Shown: one piece after another, positions 930 to 10,160 of the stretch | Numbering within the stretch: position 1 is the first letter of the stretch | Layout: every line of letters begins with the position of its first letter | Origin: an uncultured Spirochaetaceae bacterium | GTDB taxonomy: Bacteria; Spirochaetota; Spirochaetia; Treponematales; Treponemataceae | NCBI GenBank assembly: GCA_902796985.1 | Contig: CADBRC010000119.1 | Location: 1 to 11,320 of the forward strand | Reading direction: 5' to 3' | Length of the DNA stretch: 11,320 nt | Notes under the pieces: model-generated | The model's database searches: none | What the model was told of the DNA's origin: nothing | The model's input: only the letters and a program-made list of their open reading frames with translations | Made by a program: the position numbers and the translations under genes

Positions 930-2132
930 CTACTGCTGCTTGGCAGCCCTGCGGCTCATCGACTTGCGGTAGAAAGCAGCCTGTTTCTCCAGCTCCTGTA
1001 CGTCGGGAACCTGAATCTTGCCGCCCTTGACCTTGATGTTCTGGTCGGAGAAGAGGGCATAAATCGCCTGCTTCTGCTGGGACGCCTCGATTCCGGCAAG
1101 GTTGACCAGATCCTGCGGAGTGAAGTCCGTCTGGAAAGGCGCACCCTTCTCGAAGGGAACCTTGCGCAGCTCCAGCTGGAGGGCCAGCATGTCTATCATG
1201 CGCTCGCGGCTGTCCGTAAGCTGTCCGTTGAGCAGCTGGCGGTACATGGACCAGATGCGGTCCGCAAGCATGGTGGACAGGCGGGCAATGAAATCCGGCT
1301 GGCTTGTTACCATCATATTGAAGTTGGAAGCATTGACGACCATCACCTTGCAATCGCTGTGGGTAATGGCGGAAGCTGACCGGGGCTTGCTGTCAAGCAG
1401 GGCCATCTCGCCGAACATGTCGCCCTTCTTGAGCATGGCGAGGATAACTTCCTGATCATCGATGACCTTGGTAATCTTGACGGTACCGTCCTGAATGATG
1501 AACATATCGGGACCATACTGGCAGTCAGCGAAAATCATTGAGTCTATAGGATAGCTGCGGATGAGGTCGGGCGTAGACTCAAGGTATACGGGATGAGCCT
1601 TGCCCTTGAGCCTGACCAGAGCCTTCTTGGCGGCATCCACATTCTCTCCCTCCGGAAGCCTCTTGAGGTACTGGTAATAGGCGTAAGAGGCAATGTTCAG
1701 GCTGCCCTGCTCGTTGTAGTACTCCGCAATGTTGAACAGCTCTTCGGGCGTGTCCGTCGCAGCCTTCTTAAGGGTTATCTTAGTCCTCGTATCGTTCAGA
1801 AGGCGCATTTCACGGGCGAAGTAACGGATAATCTTCATAGCTATCGCATTGTTCGTCCTGATGAGCTCGGGGTACTGGTCATGGCGGACAACGATTGCCG
1901 TCACGTCCGTCAGGGCCGTTACCGTCTCGGTCTGTGAGTGACCGGACATACAGGGAATAACGCCCACGAAGTCTCCGGGCCCGAGGTTCTTCACGGTCGC
2001 CCCCGGAACCGGCATCTCATGGTAGCACTTTACTTTTCCGGTCTGGATGATGTAAAAACGGTCGTTTGAATCCGTTCCCTCAACCAAAAGGTAAGAGCCT
2101 GCCGTAAATTTCACAAAAGATAGCTGTAACAT
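930..2132 (-). CDS. Cyclic-nucleotide-binding regulator-like protein with two CNB domains
   Basis: A 400-residue cytoplasmic protein with no signal peptide or membrane segment. The first CNB/CRP-like beta-roll, about 5-115, keeps the fold pattern (R-F-Y-I-I-Q-T-G-K-V-K at 25-35), but its phosphate-binding cassette reads F-V-G-V-I-P-C-M (55-62), without the usual Glu and Arg. A helical, TPR-like linker spans about 125-175. The second CNB domain, about 190-290, has an intact cassette: F-G-E-M-A-L at 240-245 and P-R-S-A-S at 250-254, where Arg251 would pair with the cyclic phosphate. The C-terminal region (about 305-385) resembles a CRP winged helix (F-T-P-Q-D-L-V-N-L-A-G-I near 337-348), but its recognition helix is Gln/Ala-rich, so DNA binding is uncertain. 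The start has AGGA seven bases upstream. The gene lies 60 bases after murB and shares its orientation; I recall a similar neighbourhood in Treponema pallidum, not checked. It could be a cNMP-responsive transcription factor or a pure ligand sensor. Confidence 0.85.
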   Translation of the reverse strand: MLQLSFVKFTAGSYLLVEGTDSNDRFYIIQTGKVKCYHEMPVPGATVKNLGPGDFVGVIPCMSGHSQTETVTALTDVTAIVVRHDQYPELIRTNNAIAMKIIRYFAREMRLLNDTRTKITLKKAATDTPEELFNIAEYYNEQGSLNIASYAYYQYLKRLPEGENVDAAKKALVRLKGKAHPVYLESTPDLIRSYPIDSMIFADCQYGPDMFIIQDGTVKITKVIDDQEVILAMLKKGDMFGEMALLDSKPRSASAITHSDCKVMVVNASNFNMMVTSQPDFIARLSTMLADRIWSMYRQLLNGQLTDSRERMIDMLALQLELRKVPFEKGAPFQTDFTPQDLVNLAGIEASQQKQAIYALFSDQNIKVKGGKIQVPDVQELEKQAAFYRKSMSRRAAKQQ

Positions 2133-3321: not shown

Positions 3322-4083
3322 ATGAAACAGCAGGCAGACTTTACGACGATTTATTCGGACAGCGACATCATAGTAGTGAACAAGAGGAGCGGGCTTCTGG
3401 TAGCAGCGGACCGCTACGATGACCAGGCTCCCCGCCTGGACCTCGCCGTACAGAAGGAGGCCGGGGAAATATGGGCCGTCCACCGGATTGACAAGGACAC
3501 GAGCGGGCTGGTCGTCTATGCCCGCAATGCTGAGGCACACAAAGCCCTCTCCGAGCAGTTCGAAAAACGTGAAGTCCACAAAACCTACCACTGTCTGGTC
3601 AACGGAAGGCCGGTCTGGAAGGAGTTCCATGCGGACTATCCCCTTCAGGTGGACGGAGACAAGCGGCACCGGACGATCGTTGCCAAAGGAGGCAAACCCT
3701 CCGTCACCGACTTCCGCTTCATCGGGGCATGCGGCCCCTTCAGCTGGCTTGAGGCATGCCCCAAAACCGGGCGGACCCACCAGATACGTGCGCACCTGCG
3801 GGAAATGAAGCTCACGATCGTAGCCGACCCCCTCTATTCCGGCAACCAGCGGGGGGTCTACCTGAGCGACTTCAAGCGCAAATGGAACGGCAACGAGGAC
3901 GAGGAGCGGCCATTGCTGTCCCGCCTTGCCCTGCATGCATATTCGATAGAATTCAGGCACCCCGCAAGCGGCGAAATGGTCAGCTTCACTGCCCCCTATC
4001 CCCGCGACCTGGAAGCAGTCAGAAAACAGATGGCCAAGGTCTTCAAGGTGGACCCCATCACGGCGGGGGAATGCCCCCTGTGA
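3322..4083 (+). CDS. RluA-family RNA pseudouridine synthase
   Basis: A 253-residue enzyme predicted to isomerise specific uridines to pseudouridine in rRNA or tRNA. The catalytic motif is H-R-I-D-K-D-T-S-G-L at residues 54-63, with Asp57 as the expected nucleophile. Other family marks are I-I-V-V-N-K-R-S-G-L (16-25), K-T-G-R-T-H-Q-I-R-A-H-L in the middle of the protein, and A-D-P-L-Y just after it. There is no N-terminal S4 domain, so it resembles short RluA-like members rather than RluC/D; the exact target base cannot be told from sequence. The ATG has AGGAG about 13 bases upstream and AGGA one base upstream, neither ideally spaced. It is the first gene of a plus-strand operon and its end overlaps the next gene, which suggests translational coupling. 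A long antisense frame over it is a codon-bias shadow. Confidence 0.88.
   Translation: MKQQADFTTIYSDSDIIVVNKRSGLLVAADRYDDQAPRLDLAVQKEAGEIWAVHRIDKDTSGLVVYARNAEAHKALSEQFEKREVHKTYHCLVNGRPVWKEFHADYPLQVDGDKRHRTIVAKGGKPSVTDFRFIGACGPFSWLEACPKTGRTHQIRAHLREMKLTIVADPLYSGNQRGVYLSDFKRKWNGNEDEERPLLSRLALHAYSIEFRHPASGEMVSFTAPYPRDLEAVRKQMAKVFKVDPITAGECPL
4065..4078 (+). promoter_or_regulatory. Small hairpin holding the omptin ATG in its loop
   Basis: GGGGG (4065-4069) can pair with CCCCC (4074-4078) around the loop AATG, which contains the ATG at 4071. The same G-rich run is the only ribosome-site-like sequence, 9 bases before an alternative in-frame GTG at 4080. Ribosomes finishing the upstream gene at 4083 would melt this hairpin, so it may make omptin translation depend on translation of the pseudouridine synthase. 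Confidence 0.35.
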
Positions 4084-5114
4084 CACGCAGGAAACTACCC
4101 GGCGGCCCCGCCGCGCTGATCTTCCTGATTCTGTCCGTCATGCCCCTCCCGGCAAAAGAGAAAAAAAGCAGGAAGCCCTTCCGTGAACACGAATTTCACC
4201 TCTTCATTGAGCCTGAGGTCTGTTACCACCACGGCGAACAGGATGAATACGTGTTCTACGACAAGACAAGTAACAGCGAGGGACTGCTCAGCAAGCTGGA
4301 ATGGCAGGAGCGGAACATCAGGTTCTACGGGGGCAGGGTTGGGGCAAGCTTCGACAGGCTCGGGGCAGAATTCCAGATACTCTCCGCCATCAGGGGCGCC
4401 TCGGGCGAGATGTACGATTCCGACTGGCTCAACTACGACAACATGAAAACCCACTACTCGGTGAACAACAACGAGCTGGACAGCTGCTTCCGGCTGAGTT
4501 TCACGGCGTACTTCGACTTCCATCCAATCCACTCCTTCGAAGGCTTCTCCCTTGCACCGACGGCAGAGTTCGCCTATAAGAACATCCTGTTCTCCTCAAC
4601 GAACATCGAAGGCTGGTACGGGATGCCGGACAAAGACGGGAATTTCTCGGCATGGAATTCCCCGACCGCAGTCCACTTCCCCAACAAGCATGCAGTCCTG
4701 CTCGGCGTGGACTACGAGAAAATCGTCTTCTACACCTTCATCGGCGGTCAGGCCAAGCTGAACCTGCTGAACGACAGGCTGCACCTGGCCCTCGGCGGCG
4801 CAGTCTCCCCCTACAGCTACGTGAAGGCCGAGGACAAGCACTACTCCAACCGAGAACGGACAAGCTACGAGTACTATAACGACTTCATAAACATAGTTTT
4901 CAAGACTTTCAAAGGAAATTTTTCCACTTTCTTCGATATCAATGATATAATATCCCTAGGACTGAACGGGGAGGGCCTGATGAGCCTGACCTCGAAAGGC
5001 ACCCTGAACAAGCTTGAGCCGGGCAAAGGCTGGCGGAGCTACGACGGCAACTGGGGCGGTGTTTCCGAATACGGCCTCCAGATTGGCGCGGGCATCAGGA
5101 TCAACATCTTTTAG
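4071..5114 (+). CDS. Omptin-family outer-membrane protease (putative)
   Basis: A 347-residue protein with a basic N-terminus and signal peptide (hydrophobic 13-27, likely cleavage after Ala28), then a beta-barrel-like alternation of aromatic and polar residues ending in Phe347, as outer-membrane barrels do. The match to omptins (OmpT, Pla) is by motif and order. L-L-S-K-L-E-W (72-78) matches the S-Q-L-D-W region. M-Y-D-S-D-W-L (114-120) matches the D-x-D-W motif, giving Asp116 and Asp118. A-E-D-K-H-Y (253-258) matches the D-E-H-Y motif, giving Asp255 and His257. All four catalytic residues of the family (Asp83, Asp85, Asp210, His212 in OmpT) thus have counterparts. Omptins cleave peptides at the cell surface, often between basic residues. 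The start is either ATG 4071 or GTG 4080; the latter overlaps the upstream stop as GTGA. Strand and spacing place it inside the operon. Identification comes from remembered motifs, not a search. Confidence 0.75.
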   Translation: MPPVTRRKLPGGPAALIFLILSVMPLPAKEKKSRKPFREHEFHLFIEPEVCYHHGEQDEYVFYDKTSNSEGLLSKLEWQERNIRFYGGRVGASFDRLGAEFQILSAIRGASGEMYDSDWLNYDNMKTHYSVNNNELDSCFRLSFTAYFDFHPIHSFEGFSLAPTAEFAYKNILFSSTNIEGWYGMPDKDGNFSAWNSPTAVHFPNKHAVLLGVDYEKIVFYTFIGGQAKLNLLNDRLHLALGGAVSPYSYVKAEDKHYSNRERTSYEYYNDFINIVFKTFKGNFSTFFDINDIISLGLNGEGLMSLTSKGTLNKLEPGKGWRSYDGNWGGVSEYGLQIGAGIRINIF

Positions 5115-5120
5115 GAAAGG

Positions 5121-5777
5121 ATGCAGGACATGAAAAAGATTATCACGATAAGCCGCGAATACGGCTCGGGCGGGCGTTCCATCGGCAAGAAGGTTGCCGA
5201 GAGGCTTGGCATCTCCTTTTATGACAGCGAGATCATAGACATGGCGGCGGAGACTTCGGGCCTGTCCAAGGAATTCATCAGCCGCACGGAGCAGAGCATC
5301 TCAAGCGGCCTGCTCTATACCCTGCTTCTGGGTACGAGCTACGCAACCCCGGGAACGACGGGCTTTCACGGGGGGACACGGGCAACGATGAACGTTCCCC
5401 TTGCAGACCAGGTGTTCAATGCCCAGCGGCAGGTCGTCATAGAGCTTGCGAAGAAGGGCCCCTGCGTCATCGTCGGCCGCTGCGCCGACTACATCCTGAC
5501 CCATACCGAAGAAATAAACAAGGATGACGTTTTCAACGTGTTCATTTATGCGCCGCTGGAATTCAAGGCCAAGCGGGCCGTGGAACTGAAAGGACTTGAG
5601 GAAGCAAACGCAAAGAAGGACGTGAAGCTCATAGACAAGCGGCGTGCCAACCACTACAACACCTTCACGGAGCAGATCTGGGGAGACAGGAAGTGCTACC
5701 ATGCACTGCTCAACAGCTCGCTCTTCGGCATTGACGGCACGGCGGACATCATCGTCAACCTCGTACAGCACACATAA
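5121..5777 (+). CDS. Cytidylate-kinase-like P-loop kinase
   Basis: A 218-residue cytoplasmic protein of the cytidylate-kinase-like type. The N-terminus I-I-T-I-S-R-E-Y-G-S-G-G-R-S-I-G-K (7-23) is the characteristic nucleotide-binding loop, a G-S-G-G-R variant of Walker A. Further marks are I-V-G-R-C-A-D-Y (117-124), which follows the central beta strand, and a C-terminal basic stretch D-K-R-R-A-N-H-Y (172-179), where the lid arginines of nucleoside-monophosphate kinases are found, followed by Y-H-A-L-L-N-S-S (193-200). The substrate is not established for this family; true CMP kinase (Cmk) is a different, more canonical sequence, so no symbol is given. AGGAAAGG overlaps the omptin stop codon and precedes the ATG at 5121. 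Met4 at 5130, nine bases further on, is an equally plausible start and gives the usual M-K-K-I-I-T beginning. Third gene of the operon. Confidence 0.85.
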   Translation: MQDMKKIITISREYGSGGRSIGKKVAERLGISFYDSEIIDMAAETSGLSKEFISRTEQSISSGLLYTLLLGTSYATPGTTGFHGGTRATMNVPLADQVFNAQRQVVIELAKKGPCVIVGRCADYILTHTEEINKDDVFNVFIYAPLEFKAKRAVELKGLEEANAKKDVKLIDKRRANHYNTFTEQIWGDRKCYHALLNSSLFGIDGTADIIVNLVQHT

Positions 5778-8168: not shown

Positions 8169-10160
8169 CTAGCGCAGGATTTTCCGAACCAGCTTGAGGA
8201 GCTTGTCCGAGTAGGGGGAATAGCGGATGTTGAACTCCTTCTTGGGCGACTGTACGAGCACCGACTTCTTGTGCGAGAAAGTCTCAAAGCCGTACACGCC
8301 GTGATAGCAGCCCATGCCGCTCTCCCCTGCCCCGCCGAAGGGGGCCTTGCTGGAGGCCAGATGGAAGACCACGTCGTTGATGCAGCCGCCGCCGAACCGC
8401 AGCTCGCGGGTGACCCGCCTGGTGTTGTCGGCGTTCGTGCTGAATATATAGAGGGAAAGGGGAACCGGCCGTGCGGAAACGTATGCCATCACCGAGTTTA
8501 TGTTGTCGAACGTCAAAACCGGCAGCAGGGGACCGAAAATCTCCTCCTGCATGACCTCGGCATCGTTCGCCTCCCTGCCGTTCATGTCCCCCAGATCCAT
8601 TATCGTCGGGGAAATCTTGTTGGTCACGAAGTCCATCTCCGCCTTGGGGCAGAGGGTGGACAGGTGCACAAAACGGCGTTCGTTTATGATTTTGGGGTAA
8701 TCCTTGTTCTCCAGCGGCTTGTCACCGAACTGCCTGAGAATTTCGCCCTTCATCAGGTTAATCAGCTTGTCCTTCACGCCCTTGTCCACGAGGACGTAGT
8801 CGGGGGCAACGCAGGTCTGTCCGGCGTTCAGGAACTTGCCCCAGACAATTCTGCGGGCGGCAACCTCCAGGTTGGCGGAGGAATCCACGATGCAGGGGCT
8901 CTTGCCGCCCAGCTCCAGGCAGACCGGAGTCAGGAAGCGGGCCGCGCTCGACATGACGATGCGGCCAACGTTCTGGCTGCCCGTAAAGAAGATGAAGTCG
9001 AAGTGCTGTTCCAGAAGGGCGTGGTTTTCCGTGTAGCCGCCCTGAACGACCGCCAGATAGGAGCTGTTGAACGTCTTTTCCAGCATCACCTTGAGTGCAT
9101 TGTTGGTCGCCGTGGCGTACTCGGAGGTCTTGAGGATGACCGTGTTGCCCGCAGCGATGGAGCTGATGATGGGGTCAAGCGAAAGCAGGACGGGATAGTT
9201 CCACGTTGACAGGATGAGGGAAACCCCCAGCGGCTCCGGGCAGATCCTGAAACTGGCGGGGAAGAGGTGCAGCTCGGCCCGGCACTTTTTGGGGCGGGCC
9301 CACTTCTTCAGGTGGCGGATGACGTAGCTTATCTCATGGAGGACAAGACCTATTTCCGTCACGTAGCTCTCATAGGTAGACTTGGCGAGGTCCTTCTGCA
9401 AAGCTGCCGTTATCAGCTCCTCGTTGTCCTTTATGGCCCCGTAAAGCTTTTTCAGCTGCAATATGCGGAAGTTAACGTCGCGGGTCTGGCTGGTATTGAA
9501 GAAGGTCCTCTGGCTTTCCACGAGGGTGCGCATCTTGCTGTCAATCCGCTCCTGCGCGAGCTCGAACTCTACTTCCCTCCTGTCGCTGAAGTCTGCAGAA
9601 AGGACAGGACTGTCGGACTCCGCTTCGGCAGCTGCCTCGGACATGCTGGAAACCGGCGCAAAGGCTCTGTCAAAATCAACGCCGCCCTCAGAGGAGTCAC
9701 CGGCGGGCTCTTCCTGAACAAAGGGCGTCTCCACTGCAGAAGACAGTGCCGCTCCGTCAGGAGCAATATCTCCGGCGGACGGCTCCTCCGAAACGAAGGC
9801 GAAGCTATTCTCCACCTGCGCCTCGGGCTCCTCCTCCTGCACGGGCATGAGCCTGGCCGGGGCGGTCACGAAGGTCGCATCCGGCTCATCCGGCCGTTCT
9901 GCCGCTGCCTCAGCGGCCGCAGGGGAATACTCGGAATCAAAGGAGAAGGGGGCATCGACTTCCCCGGTCTTGGGATCATACAGCTTGACACCGGTCTCAT
10001 CGACCGGCTCTTCCTCCGGAACAGCGGCCTCCGGGAGCCTGTCCTTCCGCGGCCGCCCCCTCTTTGCCGGGGTCTTGGGGGCATCGCCCTTTGCCTTGAC
10101 GGCCCTCGTTCCCCTGGGCTTGGACTCCTTTTTACCTGTCGTCGTATTCCTCTCTGCCAA
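8169..10160 (-). CDS. Aldehyde dehydrogenase with a basic/acidic N-terminal extension
   Basis: A 663-residue protein. Residues about 209-663 form a complete class-3-like aldehyde dehydrogenase that oxidises an aldehyde to an acid with NAD(P)+. Marks are S-Q-R-T-F-F (216-221), S-T-W-N-Y-P (318-323), F-T-G-S-Q-N-V-G (392-399), the general base Glu416 in L-E-L-G-G-K, the nucleophile Cys450 in G-Q-T-C, and E-E-I-F-G-P (539-544). Ordinary relatives start near residue 209. The first 40 residues are Lys/Arg-rich with K-R-G-R-P-R-K (33-39), an AT-hook-like core. Residues 41-208 are acidic, Ala/Glu/Pro-rich and probably disordered, with V-x-E-E-P repeated four times. The frame is open throughout, with no sign of a frameshift. 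The start is TTG 10160 (AGG 8 bases upstream; an in-frame stop lies 9 bases before it, so nothing longer is possible). Internal Met210 could give a core-only enzyme. The physiological substrate is unknown. Confidence 0.9.
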   Translation of the reverse strand: MAERNTTTGKKESKPRGTRAVKAKGDAPKTPAKRGRPRKDRLPEAAVPEEEPVDETGVKLYDPKTGEVDAPFSFDSEYSPAAAEAAAERPDEPDATFVTAPARLMPVQEEEPEAQVENSFAFVSEEPSAGDIAPDGAALSSAVETPFVQEEPAGDSSEGGVDFDRAFAPVSSMSEAAAEAESDSPVLSADFSDRREVEFELAQERIDSKMRTLVESQRTFFNTSQTRDVNFRILQLKKLYGAIKDNEELITAALQKDLAKSTYESYVTEIGLVLHEISYVIRHLKKWARPKKCRAELHLFPASFRICPEPLGVSLILSTWNYPVLLSLDPIISSIAAGNTVILKTSEYATATNNALKVMLEKTFNSSYLAVVQGGYTENHALLEQHFDFIFFTGSQNVGRIVMSSAARFLTPVCLELGGKSPCIVDSSANLEVAARRIVWGKFLNAGQTCVAPDYVLVDKGVKDKLINLMKGEILRQFGDKPLENKDYPKIINERRFVHLSTLCPKAEMDFVTNKISPTIMDLGDMNGREANDAEVMQEEIFGPLLPVLTFDNINSVMAYVSARPVPLSLYIFSTNADNTRRVTRELRFGGGCINDVVFHLASSKAPFGGAGESGMGCYHGVYGFETFSHKKSVLVQSPKKEFNIRYSPYSDKLLKLVRKILR

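Follow-up and report, generated by a model that had tools for sequence, protein, structure and literature searches.

Among proteases, omptins are said to be alone in their need for rough lipopolysaccharide (LPS) (PMC3724046), and there is no agreed account of how LPS activates them (PMC7356225). Can an omptin work in a bacterium that seems to make no lipid A? The question is raised by the gene at 4071..5114 of an 11,320-nucleotide contig from an uncultured Spirochaetaceae bacterium (GCA_902796985.1, CADBRC010000119.1), a piece of spirochaete chromosome hereafter called the window. A first-pass annotation of this DNA had read the gene as an omptin-type outer-membrane protease in a probable spirochaete. 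We consider it quite probable that the gene encodes a genuine surface omptin of Treponema-like spirochaetes, vertically kept, which would fold and cleave with no LPS from its own host and with a specificity for single basic residues.

Family assignment, predicted fold and active site

A protein search with the window protein returned 20 relatives, nine of which carry a precomputed PF01278 label. From these, an alignment of the window protein with 19 relatives was made (A1; P0016 was omitted as an apparent chimaera), and 9/20 members of A1 matched Omptin in a Pfam scan (E ≤ 1, best 1.1e-17). The same family was matched at E ≤ 0.01 by 50/60 locus proteins, chosen among 120 distinct locus open reading frames (ORFs), with a best value of 2.2e-82. 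With a profile of 22 sequences (A2; the window protein and 21 others), solved omptin structures were matched over profile positions 32-328 of 331, with E-values from 4e-19 (2x55) to 2.1e-16 (7xw0), so that the resemblance of the catalytic pairs is far beyond chance. A narrower profile reached 6.2e-7 at best and 0.0051 for 1i78 (OmpT). The omptin identity proposed from the two signature pairs is thus borne out through the relatives and the A2 profile. On sequence grounds, the product of 4071..5114 is a genuine omptin, outside the LPS-activated enterobacterial subgroup.

The predicted structure is a ten-strand outer-membrane barrel. As had been anticipated for the fold, the model puts the catalytic pairs at the barrel top, with Asp116/Asp118 at the outer end of strand 3 and Asp255/His257 at that of strand 7. 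An enzyme of this predicted build, with its Asp/Asp and Asp/His site at the outer rim, would act as a cell-surface endopeptidase. By eye, the N-terminus looks like a signal peptide, basic at first and then hydrophobic (the model has a helix at 12-22), and the last residue is Phe. Escherichia coli OmpT (1I78, PF01278) shares the ten-strand barrel, Asp83/Asp85 and Asp210/His212, as well as Glu27, Ser99 and the C-terminal Phe.

The D-S-D-W and D-K-H-Y pairs are invariant in 20/20 aligned A1 sequences, as are D116, S117, D118, D255 and H257 in 22/22 A2 sequences. In an alignment with E. coli K-12 OmpT, the catalytic quartet Asp-Asp-Asp-His is complete in 82/82 full-length congeneric rows, including one that comes from a named Treponema metagenome-assembled genome (MAG); a single split copy accounts for two more rows, each a fragment of it. 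The congeneric loci were drawn among the matches listed and cover 75 of the 172 matching genomes, counting the window's own, namely the best-scoring, some middle and 20 lower ones (E 3.4e-30 to 5.7e-38) and others taken from the phylum-wide search described below, the weakest matches lying outside the sample. The whole set of 153 rows, which takes in the window protein and 13 proteins from the database, contains 148 full-length rows. The quartet is kept in 144 of these; of the other four, three have Asn for Asp and one is a degenerate extra copy. It is also kept in 60/60 sequences of alignment A4, most of which are less than 30% identical to its first row. The position of OmpT Ser99 holds Ser in 73/82 and Thr in 9/82 congeneric rows. 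That the barrel has been retained as an adhesin or channel with no protease function is improbable in view of this retention, complete in both the congeneric and the A4 sets.

Two genomes of other classes, G356 and G299 (loci L074, L075 and L079), carry several omptin-like copies, which on L075 and L079 are adjacent to each other; in G299, one copy has a degenerate catalytic site (EGDY).

Lipid A genes and the lipopolysaccharide motif

Of 196 congeneric genomes, sampled from a larger group and counting the window's own, 172 have omptin-like matches, as do 81/84 of the good ones. Model searches of the same 196 genomes found lpxC in none and lpxB in none, while the Omp85 (BamA) family, used as a positive control, was found in 191. 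Among 14 control genomes, the lpxC model matched E. coli and three others, and the lpxB model matched six, two of them below the model cut-off. The notion of a spirochaete host without detectable lipid A genes therefore stands. The LptD model PF04453 also gave 0/196 matches; this is not taken as absence of LptD, because the treponemal protein was recognised by structure modelling (PMC8407342) and the model may miss it.

In a phylum sample of 296 genomes, omptin-like matches (E ≤ 0.001, some weak or partial) were found in 89 and lpxC in 110, none of the latter in the window's class. Both occur together in six genomes (G203, G207, G216, G228, G279, G356) versus about 33 expected if they were independent, kinship being ignored and both searches being assumed to have drawn the same 296 genomes, as their handles and totals agree. 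Overall, lpxC is absent from 67/67 omptin-bearing genomes of the window's class and from 16/22 of other classes. No omptin match was obtained in G251 (1.1 Mb, same family) or in ten listed genomes of genus g23 (1.0-1.8 Mb, same class).

Since these host spirochaetes seem to make no lipid A, their omptin would have to fold and be active without any LPS from the host cell, whether it needs no lipid cofactor at all or uses a different treponemal lipid instead. The first-pass annotation asked whether the LPS-binding residues of OmpT, Tyr134, Glu136, Arg138, Arg175 and Lys226, are conserved or lost: the window protein has other residues at all five positions. A loose scan for YxExR/K gave no occurrence anywhere in this protein and, besides OmpT, 14/133 rows with the pattern, at scattered positions. 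At least three of the five residues are kept in 0/148 full-length rows, the alignment being distant enough that single columns may be off. In addition, the Arg138 and Arg175 columns are both basic in 0/148 rows, leaving no counterpart there to the arginine pair of Pla (2X4M, 2X55, 2X56, 4DCB), whose R138 and R171 are said to bind lipid A phosphate (PMC3724046). Among the rows from lpxC-bearing spirochaetes, nine in all, no more than two motif residues are retained in any, and at least three in 0/9.

A narrower version of the explanation preferred here is that the omptin needs a specific treponemal glycolipid as a stand-in cofactor, as OmpT uses lipid A. In Treponema pallidum, which is without LPS, an LptD ortholog is presumed to export a glycolipid of uncharacterised nature (PMC8407342), and rough LPS is described as required by omptins (PMC3724046). 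However, the columns of R138, R175 and K226 are variable genus-wide and offer no conserved replacement site (other sites were not searched), and the PF04453 count points the same way, within the limit of that model. We regard this version as possible but rather unlikely.

Several points weigh against a functional omptin freed from LPS. Taken as a single sequence, the window protein has 0 matches to Pfam or NCBIfam models, its link to the family showing up only through relatives; PF01278 likewise has 0 matches in the window's own genome, and a single-sequence search of the PDB returned a single row, at E 0.45, for a photosystem I subunit. Loss of the LPS motif as a marker of LPS-less hosts was considered and rejected, because omptins of lpxC-bearing spirochaetes are without the motif too. 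Nor does the loss prove a changed activation, because OmpT mutated in three or all five motif residues has a low activity that is still markedly raised by added LPS (PMC7356225). The authors of that study conclude against a critical role for the motif and suggest that LPS may bind at another site; by analogy, lipid A may act at sites beyond the five residues in the window protein as well. OmpT His101, whose Pla counterpart supports the active site (PMC3724046), corresponds to Asn132 in the window protein and is His in only 26/82 congeneric rows. Finally, intact residues alone do not settle activity, because Pla active-site mutants lose plasminogen activation and retain cleavage of the uPA precursor (PMC3724046).

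Inheritance and gene neighbourhood

In the preferred explanation, a surface omptin working without its own LPS, the gene would be a long-term resident inherited vertically in Treponema-like spirochaetes that seem to be without lipid A. An rluA homologue lies at most 500 bases upstream of the omptin on the same strand in 63/75 congeneric genomes (own included), in 5/16 of the wider family and in 0/32 beyond, two of the latter having less than 800 bases upstream to inspect; orthology of the neighbours was judged from tblastn alone. Contamination, or recent horizontal transfer of an enterobacterial omptin, could be suspected from the fragmented assembly (426 contigs, 75.66% complete) and from the description of omptins as horizontally spread (PMC3724046). 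This synteny already contradicts both, as do the 12-15% identity obtained when its structure is aligned with those of enterobacterial omptins and the matches throughout most of the genus, so that we give them practically no credence. A host that acquires lipid A from neighbouring rumen Gram-negatives is very improbable. One close relative does come from goat rumen, but there is no evidence of uptake, the LPS-motif residues are absent, and the presence of the omptin in 172/196 congeners together with its conserved neighbourhood points to a steady function.

Between the window and five relatives (L002-L006), the ratio of nonsynonymous to synonymous substitution rates (dN/dS) was 0.22-0.37 for the omptin, 0.04-0.07 for rluA and 0.02-0.10 for the kinase gene, at dS values of much the same size; another three comparisons had reached saturation. 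The omptin is under purifying selection. Its ratio is low but above those of its neighbours, hence the gene is kept yet changes several-fold faster than they do. Mean identity to the window protein in 14 relatives is lowest in the N-terminal extension (0.28) and in loops L5 (0.31), L4 (0.32) and L3 (0.52), and is 0.61-0.89 in the ten strands; the other two loops, L1 (0.69) and L2 (0.77), do not share this variability. The likely job of the enzyme would be the degradation of cationic peptides or surface proteins encountered in the rumen. More tentatively, and with slightly less than even confidence, spirochaete omptins may form an old vertical branch working without lipid A, LPS dependence being a later proteobacterial specialisation outside the core mechanism.

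At the positions inspected, diverged omptins stand in tandem behind rluA in six of the 75 congeneric genomes (L012, L026, L050, L055, L062, L066). At L018:6001-7062, an omptin copy is split into two frames, and a second omptin ORF follows at 8286-9359.

The ORF with D116-S-D118-W and D255-K-H257-Y was located correctly in the first-pass annotation (Table 1), with the probable exception of its start. ATG 4071 lies inside rluA, and GTG 4080, which would overlap the rluA stop as GTGA, is the more likely start, since the ATG of a relative (P0005) aligns with it in A1. The window begins with a gene for a hypothetical protein, followed by those for a double cyclic-nucleotide-monophosphate (cNMP)-binding protein, murB, the RluA-family pseudouridine synthase and the omptin. 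After the omptin come the cytidylate-kinase-like gene, a GH3 glycosidase, an aldehyde dehydrogenase and a lysA-like decarboxylase gene.

Table 1 Features of the omptin locus, in window positions
Feature	Position	Strand	Basis and remarks
Omptin-family outer-membrane protease gene	4071..5114	+	347 aa from ATG 4071; 344 aa from GTG 4080
Asp116-Ser117-Asp118 codons (OmpT Asp83/Asp85)	4416..4424	+	Outer end of strand 3; alignment, model
Asp255-Lys256-His257 codons (OmpT Asp210/His212)	4833..4841	+	Outer end of strand 7; alignment, model
Phe167/Tyr169/Asn171, replacing OmpT Tyr134/Glu136/Arg138	4569..4583	+	Alignment
Ile218, replacing OmpT Arg175	4722..4724	+	Alignment
Asn274, replacing OmpT Lys226	4890..4892	+	Alignment
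Glu59, equivalent to OmpT Glu27 (S1 pocket), kept	4245..4247	+	Alignment
Ala253, replacing OmpT Asp208 (S1 pocket), lost	4827..4829	+	Alignment
His128, replacing OmpT Asp97 (S1' pocket), lost	4452..4454	+	Alignment
RluA-family pseudouridine synthase, directly upstream of omptin	3322..4083	+	Pfam; neighbour kept in most congeneric genomes examined
Cytidylate-kinase-like protein (PF13189), downstream of omptin	5121..5777	+	Pfam; neighbour in 32/75 congeneric genomes examined

Elsewhere in the window, the protein encoded at 930-2132 (-) has two cyclic-nucleotide-binding domains and is ordinary. The aldehyde dehydrogenase at 8169-10160 (-), whose ORF starts with TTG, bears an N-terminal extension of about 200 residues, first basic (KRGRPRK, a stretch that we take to be AT-hook-like) and then acidic. 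Its homologue at L015 has a like extension, with 39% identity over the extension and 85% over the enzyme.

Substrate pocket and relation to known omptins

In OmpT, Glu27, Asp208 and Asp97 are described as setting the dibasic specificity (PMC11410778). The window protein does not have this enterobacterial set of acidic S1 (Glu27, Asp208) and S1' (Asp97) residues, and across the genus Glu27 is kept in 78/82 rows, Asp208 in 5/82 and Asp97 in 9/82. Because Glu59 is kept and the equivalents of Asp208 and Asp97 are lost, the enzyme is predicted to cleave after one basic residue with no need for a basic residue behind it, unlike the dibasic cutting of OmpT. In all, it differs from OmpT by an identity of 12% in structural alignment, by replacement of the five LPS-motif residues, Asp208, Asp97 and His101, and by a host genus with no lpxC or lpxB match.

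Omptins in treponemes are already annotated, as NCBI names omptin family proteases in Treponema denticola, Treponema putidum and one Spirochaetia MAG. Those of T. denticola and T. putidum belong to the same family, carry the PF01278 label and were found with a query that keeps the quartet and comes from a different genus within the same taxonomic family; in that genus, however, five genomes examined (G214, G226, G315, G351, G359) have no rluA neighbour. LIC20019 of Leptospira is a spirochaete barrel modelled as Pla-like (PMC5406399). It differs in coming from a host that has LPS (PMC8407342), and is set beside the window omptin here by description only. Going by titles and the starts of abstracts, we recognised no study of a treponemal omptin in the literature searched, which lacks most subscription papers. 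What is new is the combination: a near-universal gene of the genus with an intact active site, an undetected lipid A pathway, a lost lipid A motif and an altered pocket.

The omptin of a rumen Treponema, from a genus apparently unable to make LPS, offers a clean way to ask whether omptins need LPS. Because a large natural set of omptins has the intact site, no detected lipid A pathway and no motif, this need is directly testable by ordinary protein chemistry.
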